A stretch of DNA of 64,000 bases from Pirellula sp. SH-Sr6A (GTDB lineage: Bacteria; Planctomycetota; Planctomycetia; Pirellulales; Pirellulaceae). Shown here in pieces: positions 22,229 to 47,250 of the stretch (positions are counted from its first letter, which is position 1; each line of letters starts with the position of its first letter). Both the position numbers and the translations under genes were made by a program. The stretch spans positions 2,523,988 to 2,587,987 of the forward strand of contig NZ_CP011272.1 in assembly GCF_001610875.1 (NCBI RefSeq), given 5' to 3'. Below the pieces are notes generated by a model. It made no database searches, was not told where the DNA came from, and saw only the letters and a program-made list of their open reading frames with translations.

Positions 22229-23140
22229 ATGGGTCACATGGATACTTCTGAAAAGAAAGAAAGCTGGTATGACCCCAGGGAGGGGGGCGAGGCGATACGG
22301 CTGTGCACGGTATGCTTGGACGGACCGGGGACCGAGCCCCCTCGGACGAACTGCTTTGGACTTTACTTTATCGAGGCCGGTTCAGGAGTCTTCTCGGTCG
22401 ATGACGCATGCCACCCTTTCCACTCTCCGTCTCTCTTGTGCGTCGTGCCGTATCAGTATGTACGGTTCCAATGCGAAGACTCGATTTGCTGCCGTCGCAT
22501 TGAATTCCATGCCAACTTTCTCTGTATTGAGACATTTCATGCGGAGGTGGGTTGTGCCGGCAGGGTCTTCAATGATCCGTACGGGGTGCCCGTTATCGGT
22601 CTAGACGTAGAGATCGCTGCCGAGATGGCGGATTTGTTCGCATCCATCGCCCGTGAACAATCGGAGCGTAGATTGGCGTACATGGAGGCATCGCTCGCTT
22701 ATCTCAAGTTGCTACTGATCTTGGCGACACGGACCAAGGATCGTATCGATGACTCTTGCGCGGGACTTGCTGCCTCGCACCGTCATCCAACTTTGGCGAG
22801 TCTGAGTGTGTTGATCGAGGAGCGTTATCGAACTTGGCATTCCCCAGCAGAGTACGCCGATGCACTTTGCGTCACACCGAAGACGCTTGGTCGATTGGTG
22901 AGAGAGCATTTGGGAACAACTCCCACCGACTTGATTCGCCGTCGAATCATGACGCACGCCAAGTGGCAGTTGCTCCATACGTTGAAGCCTGTCAAAGAGA
23001 TTGCGTTGGAAATTGGATTCGGTGATGAGCTTTATTTCAGTAGGGTCTTTAAGAAGGCGACAGGGGTCGCGCCGAGTTTTTTCCGCGAGTTCGAAACGAC
23101 GATTCGCGGTGGTAGCAATCTGTCCATGCCTTTGGACTGA
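22229..23140 (+). CDS. AraC-family transcriptional regulator, cysteine-rich N-terminus
   Basis: The C-terminal third is a double helix-turn-helix of AraC type (SPAEYADALCVTPKTLGRLV; PVKEIALEIGFGDELYFSRVF, with the usual VAPSFFREF end). The N-terminal half is a cupin-like sensor domain with nine Cys in the first 110 residues (26, 29, 42, 61, 71, 82, 87, 88, 99, 109 region), unusual for the family and suggestive of thiol sensing. A DUF417 membrane-protein gene follows 115 bp downstream on the same strand, the pairing seen for RclR and RclC in E. coli. An alternative ATG at 22238 is possible. Confidence 0.9.
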   Translation: MGHMDTSEKKESWYDPREGGEAIRLCTVCLDGPGTEPPRTNCFGLYFIEAGSGVFSVDDACHPFHSPSLLCVVPYQYVRFQCEDSICCRRIEFHANFLCIETFHAEVGCAGRVFNDPYGVPVIGLDVEIAAEMADLFASIAREQSERRLAYMEASLAYLKLLLILATRTKDRIDDSCAGLAASHRHPTLASLSVLIEERYRTWHSPAEYADALCVTPKTLGRLVREHLGTTPTDLIRRRIMTHAKWQLLHTLKPVKEIALEIGFGDELYFSRVFKKATGVAPSFFREFETTIRGGSNLSMPLD

Positions 23141-23254
23141 TCGTCCATTTCCTTTCCGAACGCCACCTTCGATACTGAAATTGTCCGAGCGGAGGTGAGA
23201 ACGGTTCAATGAGAACGGTCGCTGGAGTCGACCATTTTGAAGGGAGCGAAAGCG

Positions 23255-23815
23255 ATGATACGTCGTGCGATGGAATTGGCAGCGAGAGCGGACAAAATCG
23301 GAGTGGTCTTGGCACGCTTAGGACTGATTATCGTCTTCTTATGGATCGGCGGCTTGAAGGCAGTGCGATATGAAGCCGACGGGATTATTCCATTCGTGGC
23401 AAACAGTCCGTTTATGAACTTTTTGATTTCGGACCCAGGCGGTTATAAGAGCCACAAGAATCCGGAGGGGGCTCTGGTCCCTGAGAACCGGGCTTGGCAC
23501 GAATCGAATGGTACATATCGATTTGCGTATGGTCTCGGTGCAGCGATTGTCTTATTTGGATTGATGCTTTGTTGCCATCCATGGTTTCCGGCCATTGCAG
23601 CTTTAGGCAGTTTCCTTATCTTCCTCATGTCGTTTGTCACACTTTCGTTTTTGATGACAACGCCGGAGTGTTGGGTCCCAGATTTAGGGGACGCCCAGCA
23701 TGGCTTCCCCTATCTCAGCGGAGCGGGGCGTCTCGTGCTCAAGGACGCTATCATGATGGGAGCTGCGTTGGTCACCATGTCCGACTCGGCAAAGAAATAC
23801 CTACAAAGGCCATAG
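23255..23815 (+). CDS. DUF417 (YkgB/RclC-like) membrane protein
   Basis: Inner-membrane protein with about four membrane segments and the family motifs LIIVFLWIGGLKAVRYEADGI and IIPFVANSPFMNFL, plus FLMTTPECWVPDLGD. E. coli RclC (YkgB) of this family belongs to the reactive-chlorine response. The ATG at 23255 has GGGAG 8 nt upstream and is preferred over a TTG at 23237. 186 aa. It probably belongs to the regulon of the AraC-type gene just upstream (inference from context). Confidence 0.85.
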   Translation: MIRRAMELAARADKIGVVLARLGLIIVFLWIGGLKAVRYEADGIIPFVANSPFMNFLISDPGGYKSHKNPEGALVPENRAWHESNGTYRFAYGLGAAIVLFGLMLCCHPWFPAIAALGSFLIFLMSFVTLSFLMTTPECWVPDLGDAQHGFPYLSGAGRLVLKDAIMMGAALVTMSDSAKKYLQRP

Positions 23816-24157
23816 TCCAAAGATGCGAATCATCGCCAATCGTCCCTATGCCGACGACTCCCGATGAATCGTATTTCTACAAGGAGGGTGGACGGATCTA
23901 GCGGCGTGCAATGAGTATCGCTTCAAGCCCTATGCGTGTTGCGATCGCAAGTGGAGAGCAATCAATTCGGTCGAATTCCCCCTCGGCTTTACCATTGCTT
24001 GAAATAGCAAGCAGCCGGATGGGGACTGGGACTGAATGCTTGCCTACGATCTTGCCAGTCAAAACCCCTAGGATGAACTTCGAGGTGCACTCCATTGCTT
24101 GAGGACGTCAATAATCCGATTCGAAGGAATACACGGAAGCGTTTCGGTAGTTGGCCA
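23816..24157. other. Intergenic region, nothing recognised
   Basis: 342 bp between the DUF417 gene and the convergent XRE regulator gene. Two short open frames lie antisense to each other (minus 23898-24095, plus 23911-24102); neither has a family likeness or clear ribosome binding site. No terminator hairpin with a T-run was identified. Confidence 0.4.
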
Positions 24158-24385
24158 TCAATGCCCACTGTGATTTGGCAAGGATTCTTCTTCTTCGAGA
24201 GGGAAAAAGATTTGCTCAATCGGTAACTTGAAGAGCTCAGAGATCTTAAATGCGAGAGTCAGACTGGGGTCATACTTACCAGTTTCGATCGCGTCTAAGG
24301 TTTGTCGGGACGCCATCAATTGCTCGGAGAGTACTGCTTGTGACCAAGCTCGTTCGGCTCTCGTAAACCTCAGGCGGTTCTTCAT
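24158..24385 (-). CDS. Small XRE-family helix-turn-helix regulator
   Basis: 75 aa: MKNRLRFTRAERAWSQAVLS, then EQLMASRQTLDAIETGKYDP forms the HTH, and LPIEQIFFPLEEEES the C-terminal strand. This is the compact YozG-like type usually paired with a small membrane protein. The ATG at 24385 is preceded by AAAGAGGT, a good ribosome binding site, and overlaps the stop of the upstream membrane-protein gene (ATGA), so the pair is co-translated. Confidence 0.88.
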   Translation of the reverse strand: MKNRLRFTRAERAWSQAVLSEQLMASRQTLDAIETGKYDPSLTLAFKISELFKLPIEQIFFPLEEEESLPNHSGH

Positions 24386-24576
24386 GCGTACCTCTTTGTT
24401 GCGAGCATCAGCCCGATCCCCCAGAAACTCGCAAGGACCGGGATGAGCCATATCCAGGAAAGAGCTGGAAATCCCGCCAGAAGCTCAAGAAAGCCGTACG
24501 TGACACTAGCGTTTACTACGGCGCCGGCGGCGAATCCGATTGCCTGAAAGTGAATGCGTTTTTGCAATTCATCCAT
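24382..24576 (-). CDS. Small membrane protein, 5' end possibly altered by the adjacent repeat array
   Basis: From the ATG at 24576 the product is about 64 aa with two membrane segments (AIGFAAGAVVNASVTYGFLE; LIPVLASFWGIGLML) and a start MDELQKRIHFQ that resembles DUF2178-like partners of XRE regulators. The frame is open further to a GTG at 24696 inside the 19-bp repeat array, and the stretch LGLLPAVPVLFGRSALHDIL between them looks like part of a genuine preceding membrane segment. The original start may thus have been displaced by the insertion. Coupled (ATGA) to the XRE gene. Confidence 0.6.
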   Translation of the reverse strand: MDELQKRIHFQAIGFAAGAVVNASVTYGFLELLAGFPALSWIWLIPVLASFWGIGLMLATKRYA

Positions 24577-24663
24577 ATTCTGAAGAATGTCATGCAACGC
24601 GGACCTACCGAATAGCACCGGGACAGCGGGGAGCAAGCCCAAGGCGGGTCCGCCATAGCCCCC

Positions 24664-24785
24664 CCAACCGGGGACACTCACCCCAACCGGGGACACTCAC
24701 CCCAACCGGGGACACTCACCCCAACCGGGGACACTCACCACTTTTTGAGGGACACTCACCAACACTGGGGACACTCACCAGGGGT
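24664..24785. repeat. Left tandem array, 19-bp unit, 6 copies
   Basis: Core GGGGACACTCAC at 24670, 24689, 24708 and 24727 (period exactly 19, spacer CCCAACC), then a degenerate copy at 24748 (AGGGACACTCAC) and one at 24767. In the first four units CCCC-AACC-GGGG can form a small hairpin. Confidence 0.95.
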
Positions 24786-24835
24786 GGGGAGGTGGGGAGT
24801 GGCCCCCCGAAGGTGGGGGGAGAGAGGGGGTGGTT
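24781..24835 (+). other. G-rich segment with G-quadruplex potential
   Basis: Directly after the left array: GGGGTGGGGAGGTGGGG, then further runs of six and five G within 35 bp. Four closely spaced G-tracts with 1-4 nt loops fit the G-quadruplex consensus on the plus strand. Confidence 0.55.
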
Positions 24836-24977
24836 CGAGGGGAATGGGGGCCGAGGGGCGGCCAGAGACGGGTTTTTGGACCGTTTGACTCTCGAGGCGC
24901 GCAGCCGCGAACCCAGTGCCGCTCCAAGGGTCACTCTCAAAGAAGAAGATGCTCGCTGGCTGGAAGGCTACAAGCTC

Positions 24978-26084
24978 TTAAGAAGGTCGCTGGAATCGCG
25001 GACAGTAGATCTGCCGCTGGGTGACCAGCGTTCGAGCCTCCTTCATACTGCGCACGCTTCCCGCCGCCAATGAGAACATTCGACTGAAATGGGTCGTGTA
25101 GTCGATCCAACGCTCGGGATCCAATCCCAACCGCTCCAACACCGGAGGCACCTCCTCGGGTGTAAACCCTTTCTTGCCTTCCCGGATAATCCTCGCCGTC
25201 GCATCCAATAGCTGGATATAGTTCATCGATGACAACGGTACCACGCCCTTGTCACTGCAACGCTTCTTCGTCTTGCTCGGTTTGCTCCCCTGGCTTCCTC
25301 TCTCATCGATCAGCTCTATCGGGGCTAAATACGCGTCTGGTAACAGACGCTGTGGCAAGGCAGGATCTTCGCTGGGCGCTGGGGACTGCGGCGATTCCGT
25401 TTGAGTTCCCTCCGGGGGCGGTTCCGGCTTGGCAAGCTCCTGCTTCAGGGCTGCGATTCGCTGGGCTACCGACGTGTACTGGGATGCCTCGAGCGTCTGG
25501 GCTACCTGGGCGCGGATGGGATTCAAATCCACATAGCTCACGCAGGCCAAGATGGCTTCGTCATCGAGCAACCGCACCGCCTTGAACCGGCCATTGAAGA
25601 GACGGCCCGTCTCTTGGAGCTCCAGGTTGGCGCGCTTGGCGACTCGCTGGCAAAGGATGCGCATCCACCACGAGATATCGCTCAGCCGCAAACGGATCTC
25701 TTTCAACTTCTCGGGCTTGGTGCGGATCGCATCGAGCTCCTTTTCGTTGGGCTCCGCTGGAGTCTTGTCTTTGTTCTTCCTCTTGGGGCACATCAACATC
25801 CAGCGCCTGGCCACTTCGGTATCGTCCCACTCTTGGACAATGTCGGGGCGAGACCGCAAGACCGAGTGGAAGTGGTTGCTCATGATGGCATGACCTAGGA
25901 CGTCGATGCCAAAGTACTGGGCTTGCTCCTCGATCTGCTTGGTGATCCAGAGACCGCGATGGCTGTGATCTTTGCGGGTGAGAGCATCATCGCCGAGCAA
26001 GAAGTACTTGCGAACAATGGTGGCGATGGTGTGGACCGTAGCGACTTCGTCGGGACGGTAGATATCGGCGCGGGCGCTGCGCAT
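24978..26084 (-). CDS. REP-associated/IS200-like HUH (Y1) transposase
   Basis: 368 aa from the ATG at 26084, which has AAGGA 9 nt upstream; the frame is open back into the repeat array (GTG at 26276) but that part is not conserved-looking. HUH motif in IMSNHFHSVLR; SYVDLNPIRAQ matches the conserved Y-x-x-L-N-P-x-R-A motif of RAYT/TnpA_REP proteins; GRLFNGRFKAVRLLDDE is the usual segment before it. The insert WMLMCPKRKNK and a C-terminal Pro/Glu-rich linker plus about 100-aa extra domain make it longer than classical RAYTs, as in planctomycete homologues. Expected to nick and rejoin single-stranded DNA at the flanking repeats (inference). Confidence 0.85.
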   Translation of the reverse strand: MRSARADIYRPDEVATVHTIATIVRKYFLLGDDALTRKDHSHRGLWITKQIEEQAQYFGIDVLGHAIMSNHFHSVLRSRPDIVQEWDDTEVARRWMLMCPKRKNKDKTPAEPNEKELDAIRTKPEKLKEIRLRLSDISWWMRILCQRVAKRANLELQETGRLFNGRFKAVRLLDDEAILACVSYVDLNPIRAQVAQTLEASQYTSVAQRIAALKQELAKPEPPPEGTQTESPQSPAPSEDPALPQRLLPDAYLAPIELIDERGSQGSKPSKTKKRCSDKGVVPLSSMNYIQLLDATARIIREGKKGFTPEEVPPVLERLGLDPERWIDYTTHFSRMFSLAAGSVRSMKEARTLVTQRQIYCPRFQRPS

Positions 26085-26240
26085 GATCTGCATTCCTTGG
26101 GCGAAAGGGAAAACATCGGCAAAACAAGGGACGATTCGTTCGGGTTGCCGGGCACGATCCTGTGCATAGAAGTGATTGGAGCGTCTCGAGACCCCAGATA
26201 CAAGAGTGGGGAAGGGGGCGCCAAAAAGATTTTTCAGGAC

Positions 26241-26737
26241 ACCGGAACTGGGGACACTCACGCGTACTGGGGACACTCACGCGTACTGGGGACACTCACG
26301 CGTACTGGGGACACTCACGAGGACTGGGGACACTCACGAGGACTGGGGACACTCACGAGGACTGGGGACACTCACGAGGACTGGGGACACTCACGAGGAC
26401 TGGGGACACTCACGAGGACTGGGGACACTCACGAGGACTGGGGACACTCACGAGGACTGGGGACACTCACGAGGACTGGGGACACTCACGAGGACTGGGG
26501 ACACTCACGAGGACTGGGGACACTCACGAGGACTGGGGACACTCACGAGGACTGGGGACACTCACGAGGACTGGGGACACTCACGAGGACTGGGGGACAC
26601 TCACGAGGACGGGGGACACTCACGAGGACGGGGGACACTCACGAGGACGGGGGACACTCACGAGGACGGGGGACACTCACGAGGACGGGGGACACTCACG
26701 AGGACGGGGGACACTCAACTGGACGGGGGACAGACAT
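26241..26737. repeat. Right tandem array, 19-bp unit, about 26 copies
   Basis: GGGACACTCAC recurs every 19 bp from 26251 to 26574 (18 copies); one extra G shifts the phase at 26594, then seven more copies to 26708 and a degenerate last copy at 26727. The first three intervals carry GCGTACT between cores, the main block GAGGACT, the last block GAGGACG, so the array has three sub-blocks. All three forward frames lack stops; the translated three-unit repeats are not evidence of a protein. Confidence 0.97.
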
Positions 26738-26853
26738 GGGAGGTTAAGGAAGGGGTGGGACACAGTGCAGTTCGGTTGAGAACCGGAGACACCTTCAAAT
26801 GCAATTCACCGCGGCGCGGATACGGCATCCCTGATTGATCGTGTTTATCCTCA

Positions 26854-27390
26854 TCACCACAGACTGCAGACAACGATATCCGGACGTTGTTTTTTTAGCT
26901 CCTCGAGTCCTGCTGAAGTTATGAGGGTATCCGACACATCGAGTGACATTAGGCCTTGGATGGACGCGATTGCTGGTATCGCTTCGTCCGTGATAGGCGA
27001 TCCATTGAGCCGCAATACTGCGATTGATCCGATGCCAGCGAGAATTTGCAGCTGCGTGTCTGTCACCTTGCAATGAGTGAGGTGGAGTATTCGAATGTGT
27101 TTGAGACTTGCCACCCCGCTCAGGCTCTCGTCTGTTATTTTGGCACCCGAAAAGTCAAGGCTTTCAAATGAGCCGAAACCTCCAATCCGTTCCAGACTCA
27201 TCGGTGCAACGAAGCTAACCCACGATGGAGTGTTGCTTTCGTCGAAACCAACATAGTACGCGCCCATAGAATGCAAGTCCGCTTCGATGCGACATCGTTC
27301 TCGGTAGACTCGAGTCGTAGACTCCACAACCATAAAGCCTATGGAAAGAGCGCCGACGACTACCATCATGGTTCGGATTCTAAACTTCAT
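26854..27390 (-). CDS. Leucine-rich-repeat protein with N-terminal membrane anchor
   Basis: 178 aa. Residues 8-24 (MMVVVGALSIGFMVVES) form a membrane anchor; from about residue 70 there are four to five LRR units (FESLDFSGAKITDESL; IRILHLTHCKVTDTQL; IAVLRLNGSPITDEAI; LMSLDVSDTLITSAGL) of the RNI/cysteine-containing type common in planctomycete proteins. Likely faces the periplasm and binds another protein. The MKFRIRTMM start is typical of this group. Function unknown. Confidence 0.8.
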   Translation of the reverse strand: MKFRIRTMMVVVGALSIGFMVVESTTRVYRERCRIEADLHSMGAYYVGFDESNTPSWVSFVAPMSLERIGGFGSFESLDFSGAKITDESLSGVASLKHIRILHLTHCKVTDTQLQILAGIGSIAVLRLNGSPITDEAIPAIASIQGLMSLDVSDTLITSAGLEELKKQRPDIVVCSLW

Positions 27391-27502
27391 TCATCCTCCG
27401 TTTCACGCTTTGCTGCTTGAGCGGCGCATCAGGGTCAATGAAGGTGACAGAAGAGGAAAGACTGAAGGGAAGTATACCAACAGCAAACGTCGACACCGGA
27501 TA

Positions 27503-27778
27503 CTATCTACGGTTCTTTCGATCGGGCTCATGCCCAAGTAACGCATACCGGGCGAAGTGCAACAGTCCGGCAAATCGAAACTCAGGGTCAACGTAGTGTT
27601 CGATGACATAGAATGCGAAATAGTACGCGCGACAAAACCCCCAGACAGCAATGACAAGCAGAGCGACGTACCGAATGTCGGAAAGCGGTGCAACGAGTAG
27701 CGCCGAGGCGAGCAAACCCAATAGCAAGAATAAAAAACCCTTCTATGAGATGATGCGAGGGTCCGTTAAGTTGGCCAT
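27503..27778 (-). pseudogene. Small two-helix membrane protein with in-frame TAG at codon 12
   Basis: A start ATG at 27778 has GGAGGA 8 nt upstream and reads MANLTDPRIIS, then TAG (27743-27745), then continues in the same frame as KGFLFLLLGLLASALLVAPL and on to ALLGHEPDRKNRR (stop at 27503). The strong ribosome binding site and the uninterrupted hydrophobic frame after the stop argue that one gene of about 91 codons was hit by a nonsense mutation. A restart at TTG (27727) could still give a 74-aa product with two membrane segments. A sequencing error is the other possibility. Confidence 0.65.
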
Positions 27779-28113
27779 TCGGAGCTTCCTCCACCAGTCA
27801 TGAAAACGATGTAACTAAAGACGTGCAATTCTTTCGGTGCACACGCTAGGCATCCGGCCGACTAACCCGCTGAAGATCGCAATCGCGAGACTTAACTACC
27901 CAAGCGTGGCGATTTGGCAGGAACCTGTCAAATGTTTCTGCTTCCTTTCGGATCGCCGATTGGCAGAAAGCACTTGGGCGGTGGCGTCAAACGAACGCCA
28001 CCTGCTGAATGCACCCCATTCAGGGAAGTGCTCTTCGATTTCAAAAATGAGAATATCCTCGAACGACTCCTCTTCCATGGCCCAACCAGGCCCATCAAGA
28101 AAGATGAGGGCGT
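27779..28113. other. Chromosomal flank left of the integrated element
   Basis: 335 bp. On the minus strand 27896-28078 reads MEEESFEDILIFEIEEHFPEWG..., which is protein-like for about 25 residues and is preceded in frame by ALIFLDGPGWA with no start until the att repeat; after residue 35 the likeness to a protein fades. It may be the remnant of a gene broken by frameshift or by the nearby insertion. No ribosome binding site was seen. Nothing else is recognisable. Confidence 0.3.
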
Positions 28114-28139
28114 AAAAAAACCCAGCGAGTTGCTGGGTT
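28114..28139 (-). terminator. Rho-independent terminator copy within attL
   Basis: On the minus strand AACCCAGC-AACTC-GCTGGGTT followed by T7. Identical to the terminator behind tRNA-Glu at 36250-36275; before integration this was the single tRNA terminator or its element-borne copy. Confidence 0.8.
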
Positions 28140-28189
28140 TAGATGTCTCGGGAGGGGCTATGATACCCTACCCAATGACCCCGACGGGA
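28114..28189. other. attL
   Basis: 76-bp repeat matching attR except at 28160 (A for G) and 28166 (C for G). It contains the terminator hairpin AACCCAGC-GAGTT-GCTGGGTT and a 14-bp copy of the tRNA-Glu 3' end (TGACCCCGACGGGA as read on plus). Beyond it, GAAC after two mismatches extends the match into a T-loop mimic. Confidence 0.92.
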
Positions 28190-28399
28190 TTAGAACATGC
28201 CCACCATTCCCAAGGGAAATCGCAAAAAGCCGACTTGGTTCCCCTACCGGTTCCCCCGTCGAGCCCCATCACAAGCGATCTGAGGGAGTTGCATCAATTG
28301 TGGGATCGATTGGATGAGTCGGCCCGTCGGGACCTGCTGGCGGTGGCTCGGGGGTTGGCCGACGTTGCTTCATCGAGGGGCGTGGCTGAGAATGAGTGA
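28190..28399 (+). CDS. Detached C-terminal tail of the element integrase (69 codons, no own start)
   Basis: In the frame of the integrase ORF as it enters the att repeat, the sequence after attL reads LEHAHHSQGKSQKADLVPLP, then a Pro-rich hinge and an amphipathic segment DLRELHQLWDRLDESARRDL-LAVARGLADV, ending at TGA 28397-28399. The frame through the repeat (KKPSELLGLDVSGGA...YPMTPTG) is identical in attL and attR. Excision joining attR-left to attL-right would therefore append this tail to integrase residue 416. In the integrated state the frame is open upstream to 27914, but that part is chromosomal flank and unlikely to be a gene. Confidence 0.7.
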   Translation, partial: LEHAHHSQGKSQKADLVPLPVPPSSPITSDLRELHQLWDRLDESARRDLLAVARGLADVASSRGVAENE

Positions 28400-28637
28400 G
28401 TCGGCCCCCTATCGATCGGGTCCTTTGCCGATCCTGCGATTCCATCGCGACGTTAAAACGGCCCGAATCCGTTTCGAAAAATCCGTCCGGTGGCGAGCCG
28501 TGGGGGCTTGGGGGCGGTGTGCGTGTAGCTCCCCCATCCCCCAAGCGACGGGAGTCCTAACTAATTTTCAATGGCGCTGTTGGGCGACGATCCCGCCGAG
28601 GCTGATGGCCCAATGCGATTGGGACCCCGGTTGGTAG
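28392..28637 (+). CDS. Possible 81-aa ORF overlapping the integrase tail
   Basis: ATG at 28392 overlaps the TGA of the integrase tail, so it would be translationally coupled to the integrase only in the excised circle. Reads MSESAPYRSGPLPILRFHRD and on to ...LMAQCDWDPGW. Basic, no recognised family, no independent ribosome binding site. It may be chance. Confidence 0.3.
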   Translation: MSESAPYRSGPLPILRFHRDVKTARIRFEKSVRWRAVGAWGRCACSSPIPQATGVLTNFQWRCWATIPPRLMAQCDWDPGW

Positions 28638-46362: not shown

Positions 46363-47250
46363 TTATTGCGGGAGCGAAGCAGGAGGCAATCCGGGCAATG
46401 CTCCCGGCAATACACCGCCCGTTGTGTTACCCGAAGAGGCAGATTGTGGCAAACCACCGGGCAATCCCGCTCCAGGGAGATTCGTTCCACCTACATAGCC
46501 GGTTGGCAATGGCTGGCCAGCAGGAAGACCACCAGCAGGAAGACCACCAGCAGGAAGACCACCAGCAGGAAGACCACCAGCAGGAAGACCACCAGCAGGA
46601 AGACCACTCGTTGGGAGTGCTCCCGCTGGGCTCGAAGGTGGCAAGCTGCCTGGAGCTCCTGGCAATGCCGCGACTCGGGTCGCAGGGGCTTCTGGAGTTT
46701 GTGCGGCTGGCGATGTGCCCGGCTCGTCCAATTTTTCGAAGTTCACGACTTCGTATTCTTCCCCAGTCCCGGGATCGACAGCCATCTCACAGACGCGCCA
46801 TCCCGCGGCTTCTTTGCGAAGAACCCATAGGACTTCCATCTCCTGCGGTTGTTCCCCTGCGGCGGTCGGTGGTTCAATCCACTTCGAAGTCACCAAAATC
46901 GCTTCTCCCTGCGGAACGGCGTCTTGGATTTGAAAGGTGGCTTGGGCCGATCCTGGCGGTGCGATCTGGATTCCTTGTCGCGCAATCTCTTCCCGAGCAG
47001 CACTGGAGAAAAGGGCGGAGAGCTGTTCTGCATTTCCAGCTCGCATGGCGTCCAAGAAAACGCGGACAATGTCCTTCGGGTCGGTCGGGGTAACGATGTT
47101 GGTGCCCGCTGCAGGAAGTCCAGCGACTCCACCTTGTGCGACAGGTGTATTGGCAGCGACTGGCGCGTCGGCAGTTTGGTTGCCACCACCTCCGCATCCC
47201 ACGGTGAATGCCAACGAAAGAGCAACTGGAGCCCAGAGAATTCGTTTCAT
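46363..47250 (-). CDS. Lipoprotein with (LPAGG) repeats
   Basis: 295 aa from the ATG at 47250; the longer open frame to 47355 lacks signal-peptide logic. Signal peptide with lipobox FTVGC (Cys19). Residues about 55-175 form a folded domain (DIVRVFLDAMRAGNAEQLSA; VLWVLRKEAAGWRVCEMAVD) resembling small NTF2/DUF-type planctomycete domains. The C-terminal third is low-complexity Pro/Gly/Ala with six LPAGG units encoded by perfect 15-bp repeats at 46517-46606. Anchored in a membrane; role unknown. Confidence 0.8.
   Translation of the reverse strand: MKRILWAPVALSLAFTVGCGGGGNQTADAPVAANTPVAQGGVAGLPAAGTNIVTPTDPKDIVRVFLDAMRAGNAEQLSALFSSAAREEIARQGIQIAPPGSAQATFQIQDAVPQGEAILVTSKWIEPPTAAGEQPQEMEVLWVLRKEAAGWRVCEMAVDPGTGEEYEVVNFEKLDEPGTSPAAQTPEAPATRVAALPGAPGSLPPSSPAGALPTSGLPAGGLPAGGLPAGGLPAGGLPAGGLPAGQPLPTGYVGGTNLPGAGLPGGLPQSASSGNTTGGVLPGALPGLPPASLPQ
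46517..46606. repeat. 15-bp in-frame minisatellite, 6 copies
   Basis: CCAGCAGGAAGACCA repeated six times with period 15 (starts at 46517, 46532, 46547, 46562, 46577, 46592), coding LPAGG on the minus strand. Copy-number change keeps the reading frame. Confidence 0.95.

Follow-up and report, generated by a model that had tools for sequence, protein, structure and literature searches.

Why a short tandem repeat should flank a transposase gene on both sides, and what multiplied it, is the question raised by one locus of Pirellula sp. SH-Sr6A. The locus lies in a 64,000-nucleotide stretch of contig NZ_CP011272.1 (positions 2,523,988 to 2,587,987; hereafter, the window). The original prediction, made from the letters of the window and its open reading frames, held that a RAYT/IS200-like HUH transposase gene is enclosed by two arrays of a 19-bp repeat, and that the repeat could be the substrate of the enzyme or a by-product of its activity.

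The transposase gene and its flanking repeats

A pattern search of the window for the core GGGGACACTCAC returned 31 matches, all of them on the + strand, six to the left of the gene and 25 to its right (Table 1), compared with a mean of 0.33 and a maximum of 3 matches in the shuffled window. The predicted tandem arrangement on both sides, its single orientation and the six left-hand copies thus stand, and the right-hand count of 'about 26' is corrected to 25. One core on each side carries a mismatch, leaving five exact cores on the left and 24 on the right, where the 19-bp period is kept with 98% matches. Units such as GGGGACACTCACCAACACT on the left and GGGGACACTCACGAGGACT on the right exemplify the two arrays; from the gene outward, the right array passes through three units of the CGCGTACT type, 14–15 of the GAGGACT type and six of the GAGGACG type. 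Read in gene orientation, this array has the form CGTGAGTGTCCCC..., and across the gene copies of the genome (see below) the 3' flank is followed by 3–6 copies of GGTGAGTGTCCC[CT] separated by spacers of varied length.

Table 1. Features of the family A unit in the window (window coordinates)
Feature	Position	Strand	Remarks
CCCCC-loop-GGGG inverted repeat	24660..24673	.	outer end of the 3' cluster
3'-side cluster	24662..24780	+	6 GGGGACACTCACC cores, spacing 19–21 bp, polarity as in the right array
3' flank of the gene	24781..24977	-	near-identical in six copies, ends at the cluster; CCCCACCTTCGGGG... in gene orientation
Family A transposase gene	24978..26084	-	368 aa from ATG at 26084; homologues begin here
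Probable ancestral 5' end	26143..26164	-	CACAGGATCGTGCCCGGCAACC
Segment between probable 5' end and array	26165..26246	.	about 80 bp
5'-side tandem array	26247..26732	+	25.5 units of 19 bp, consensus ACTGGGGACACTCACGAGG

The two sides also differ in folding. Folded as DNA, two adjoining units of the commoner 3'-side type yield mini-hairpins of the form TGG.GA...TC.CCA (z -2.8, with one of 200 shuffles equally good); the downstream units thus fold weakly, yet better than 199 of 200 shuffles; the right-array units gave no hairpin on folding, and the closing CCA is absent from them. At the outer 3' junction, CCC[CT]-N3-8-GGGGG in gene orientation is present at six of the seven genomic loci described below, against a background of 0.7%, this hairpin having been spotted post hoc, so that its p value is no fair test. 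The forms GGTGAGTGTCCCC and GGGGACACTCACC, single-stranded, are regarded as the candidate substrate. An Rfam search of positions 23000–28500 found no match, and a search of the literature for the core string found nothing related. Elsewhere in the window, at 46517–46607, a 15-bp repeat, CCAGCAGGAAGACCA, occurs six times without a mismatch and is probably coding, because the unit length is a multiple of three.

The family A gene has a second in-frame ATG at 26093, and its open frame runs on into the array to 26276. The encoded protein combines an NHFH motif (N70-H71-F-H73) with a putative catalytic tyrosine, Y184, in the context YVDLNP (Y---NP); across 42 aligned relatives, H73 never varies, and H71 and Y184 hardly do. 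Searched alone against Pfam, the protein matched no family, and its match to the NCBIfam model REP_Tyr_transpos was weak (E 3e-6, 27 bits, cut-off 80); that model is matched by all 42 relatives, and the Pfam family Y1_Tnp by 24. A sequence search of the PDB found no relative. An AlphaFold model (pTM 0.84), predicted from an alignment from which plasmid-derived rows were left out, was most similar to 4er8, the Escherichia coli TnpAREP bound to a REP hairpin (Z 12.5, 158 residues, 2.6 A), which ranked first among 995 chains, with IS608 at Z 9.3 and unrelated folds at Z <=6.1. The HUH motif, Y184, the TnpAREP fold and the profile matches of the relatives together uphold the assignment to RAYT-type HUH transposases.

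Copies of the unit in the genome

A pattern search of the genome, a single contig of 6,534,136 bp, found 111 exact cores (105 forward and six reverse), and genome-wide a reversed control pattern found none. All 111 lie at seven loci, six at gene copies and one gene-less, the six reverse cores belonging to the one copy with its gene on the + strand, at 0.586 Mb. With 108 of the 111 cores flanking the six gene copies, the proposed tie between repeat and transposase is borne out. The opposite outcome, arrays found mostly without such a gene, is represented among the seven loci by a single cluster, at 106.9 kb, which holds the remaining three cores and is of the 3'-side type. Six of the seven loci read on the + strand, a bias that falls short of significance with only seven loci and runs counter to the polarity of family B (see below) in the same half.

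The 1134-bp cores of the six copies differ at 0–16 positions, and BLAST comparison between the flanks of different copies found no similarity; the copies therefore represent six separate insertions. Family A in this respect has near-identical copies at separate sites, as membership of the IS200/IS605 group would require. The unit, arrays included, is mobile, because exact cores accompany six gene copies whose proteins are 99–100% identical. A search with the joined flanks of two copies covered 27 genomes of the genus, and in the 26 others no base-precise empty site turned up; the nearest of these, G010 (73–79% DNA identity), covered one side only, with intergenic DNA that could not be aligned.

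All six copies carry GTGAGTGTCCCC repeats downstream in gene orientation, and five also have an upstream array of the same polarity, of about 0, 3, 13, 21, 25 and 51 units across the six; family A cores occur in direct polarity only. A 70%-identical relative in G010 has two copies that both retain the probable 5' end of Table 1 but differ from one another on its upstream side. The roughly 80-bp segment beyond this end is common to the copies here (full in five of six) and absent from the G010 relative, and it moves with the unit. Downstream, those G010 relatives have clusters of the ATGAGTGTCCCC or GTGAGTGTCCCC type; upstream, they lack an array. Given that the innermost array units and the 80 bp are common to the copies here, an array of the 3' type has probably come to lie upstream, where it moves with the gene.

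The copy at 2.80 Mb (L034/L051; G000:C1:2799430-2803533) is without an upstream array, which is therefore dispensable for the persistence of the unit. Its 5' junction, at CTTTTTGGCGCC, lies just upstream of a gene named dprA-like from its sequence and may mark either an alternative end or a deletion.

Lineage-specific motifs and the growth of the arrays

The motif varies with the transposase lineage, relatives having GGTGCCAGGCACC, GGTGCCACCCACC, GGGGACACCAC and others. Within the genus, the 5' end motifs are GGTGCCACCCACC, AGGTGCCAGGCACCT (a clean hairpin), GGGGACACCAC and GGGGCCATCCATC; several lineages have the matching inverted motif downstream, and several have 3–7 copies of one end in the same orientation. 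More distant relatives, at 29–36% identity, are plasmid-borne in Pseudoalteromonas, Catenovulum, Saccharobesus, Shewanella, Photobacterium, Aeromonas and Vibrio, all 14 plasmid records being from Alteromonadales, Vibrionales or Aeromonadales. Those of Pseudoalteromonas have inverted ends, TGACACCCACC...GGTGGGTGTCA, plus duplications of the 3' end, and Catenovulum adriaticum has a 149-bp 5' end three times in tandem. On C. adriaticum plasmid pCadTS8_2 (L260), a gene-less mini-element, retaining 24 bp of 5'-end and about 120 bp of 3'-end sequence, lies upstream of a full copy and is a MITE-like derivative. Duplicated ends, seen both in the genus and in the plasmid-borne relatives, therefore recur across the group, and the 19-bp arrays are extreme among them. 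The statement that similar strings occur in other planctomycetes is not supported for the exact repeat: among 397 genomes of the class, tandem GGGGACACTCAC is found in this genome only, with no exact tandem occurrence in the 396 others.

A second family in the same genome, family B, comprises 11 copies with a mean DNA divergence of 1.1% and a protein about 40% identical to that of family A. Its motif, aGGCACCCACC (AGGTGGGTGCCT, AGGCACCCACC), occurs 128 times in the genome and flanks most copies on both sides; apart from one inverted case, its polarity is direct. Clusters of the motif are also found away from the 11 genes, e.g. at 1.27, 2.62–2.64, 2.75, 3.12, 3.52 and 4.56 Mb. Below 3.0 Mb all nine family B clusters are on the minus strand, and above it six of the eight among those listed are on the plus strand (p 0.002), a split of the kind expected if insertion follows the direction of replication, as in IS200/IS605 elements; transcription bias could be another source of it. 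The origin of replication may lie elsewhere than at dnaA (0.6 kb), because GC skew on the + strand shows little strength and leans towards negative values over the first half. At the right flanks of six family B copies (L055, L056, L058, L060, L063 and L065), a sequence starting GAATGGCACTGTAATC follows directly after CACCCAC and is apparently the end of another repeated element, as if targeting family B repeats.

At the level of sequence comparison, motif and transposase lineage are shown to be linked. The reading that we consider probable is that the locus holds a REP-transposase unit, RAYT-type and with a Y1 HUH enzyme like those of subclass 2.3, in which amplification of the end motif has given rise to tandem arrays. 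The 13-bp motif would act as a degenerate, REP-like mini-hairpin by which the 3' end of the unit is recognized, which makes the repeat a candidate substrate of the transposase. An array of the 3' type may then have come to lie upstream as well, from where it would now move with the gene. The first duplications of an end may stem from the transposase joining a new end beside the old one on single-stranded DNA, and the long upstream arrays, with their 0–51 units, would lengthen and shorten mainly through replication slippage or unequal exchange.

For the long upstream array, ordinary repeat instability is favoured, because identical units lie in blocks, a chimeric unit is present, the arrays change fast and the upstream units do not fold. 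In four arrays identical units adjoin more often than in shuffles (38 of 49 pairs in L049, where the shuffle maximum is 22). One repeated block of L049 starts with a chimeric unit; homogeneous blocks with a chimeric unit are a mark of slippage or unequal exchange. The 1134-bp cores of L048 and L049 are identical, and their right-hand units number about 21 and 51, so the arrays change much faster than the genes. Slippage or unequal exchange accounts for this pattern no less well than growth made by transposition.

The enzyme may nevertheless have a part in array growth. Were the transposase itself to make the arrays, it would cut single-stranded DNA at successive motifs of the same polarity and rejoin or insert single units or unit circles, thereby lengthening and shortening the array, and it could excise a circle carrying the gene between two direct motifs. 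The same direct-polarity motif on both sides would offer two equivalent cut sites, the innermost array units move with the gene, the duplicated ends of the distant relatives have units of 48–200 bp, less readily made by plain slippage, and the orientation of family B by genome half is as expected of single-strand transposition at the fork. Against these points, the homogeneous blocks and chimeric unit look like leavings of slippage or unequal crossing-over, the array units are without a hairpin, and neither a circle nor a junction was seen; we hold this origin to be rather doubtful. The specific mechanism, in which a RAYT-class HUH enzyme uses same-polarity direct motifs as both ends and builds or trims arrays by single-strand cutting and joining, we likewise consider unlikely; if true, an array would be a bank of interchangeable ends.

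The motif could also lie on both sides because the unit takes arrays of this motif that already exist as its targets, as the family B clusters away from their genes and the family A relatives in G010, with repeats downstream only, might suggest. Only one gene-less cluster is known for family A, however, and the inner upstream units and the adjoining 80 bp are common to its copies, so that the array came along with them, and such self-targeting is unlikely. An ordinary minisatellite, arisen by slippage on G-rich repeats and hitch-hiking beside a transposase gene, would account for the perfect 19-bp periodicity and the block structure but is very improbable, given cores that accompany every one of the six gene copies and are nearly absent elsewhere, irregularly spaced motif clusters on the other side of the gene, a paralogous family B with a cognate motif of its own, a motif at the unit ends of relatives and, in independent families, the association of motif with lineage. 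Amplification of the end motif of a REP-transposase unit is hence the reading that we carry into the comparison below.

Comparison with known systems

Two families in one genome show the recent spread of a RAYT-class gene together with its cognate repeat, a kind of gene long thought unable to jump by itself. They provide a candidate DNA substrate and candidate ends, and the 0–51 units beside near-identical genes are natural size variants for asking how transposon-linked arrays arise, through the enzyme or through ordinary slips in copying.

Like the IS200/IS605 elements IS608 and ISDra2, family A has the Y1 HUH catalytic plan and near-identical units in several copies, and the strand bias of family B is suggestive of single-strand transposition; unlike them, it has a class 2 protein with extra domains and ends multiplied in tandem, and no TTAC-type ends were recognized in family A.

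With the RAYT/TnpAREP proteins and their REPs or REPINs in E. coli and Pseudomonas fluorescens SBW25, it shares the HUH fold (4er8) and a repeat family specific to the transposase. The contrast originally drawn with classical RAYTs, said to act on single palindromic REPs or REP pairs and not on long tandem arrays, was too sharp, because tandem REP arrays, oppositely oriented on opposite sides of the chromosome, are already known in SBW25 (PMC3116915); the orientation of family B is likewise split by chromosome side. What differs is that the family A gene is multi-copy and moves with its repeats, that the SBW25 units are longer, and that, by contrast with a classical REPtron, GGGGACACTCACC is without the GTAG foot, its weak, imperfect hairpin being confined to one side; GT[AG]G-footed palindromic REPs were not found beside the gene.

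In TIRYTs, or TIRtrons, the terminal inverted repeats share the end consensus GGGGWSAS (Di Nocera et al., 2013; PMC3733652). The family A motif GGGGACAC fits this consensus, and inverted ends of such a kind are present in the relatives from the genus and from Alteromonadales. However, the motif of families A and B is direct rather than inverted on both sides, and it is repeated up to 51 times; moreover, most TIRYTs belong to subclass 2.1.

Class 2 (RAYT-class) proteins have been described as low-copy and without formal evidence of autonomous mobility, subclass 2.3 being multi-copy, prevalent in Alteromonadales and Chromatiales and distinguished by an insertion of about 55 aa between beta3 and alphaC, a long C-terminal domain and a median length of 325 aa (Quentin et al., 2018; PMC6006769). 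The family A protein, which has the class 2 signature Y---NP, resembles this subclass in length (368 aa, with a long C-terminal tail), in copy number (6 + 11 copies in this genome) and in taxonomy, the plasmid-borne relatives being mostly from Alteromonadales; the 58 residues that separate the strand after the HUH motif (E71-78) from the long helix (H137-156) in the model may correspond to the insertion, which makes the protein a putative member. Automatic and manual searches found no REP-like repeats for subclass 2.3, and its copies within a genome were not highly conserved (Quentin et al., 2018); here, by contrast, cognate repeats are present and the copies are 99–100% identical.
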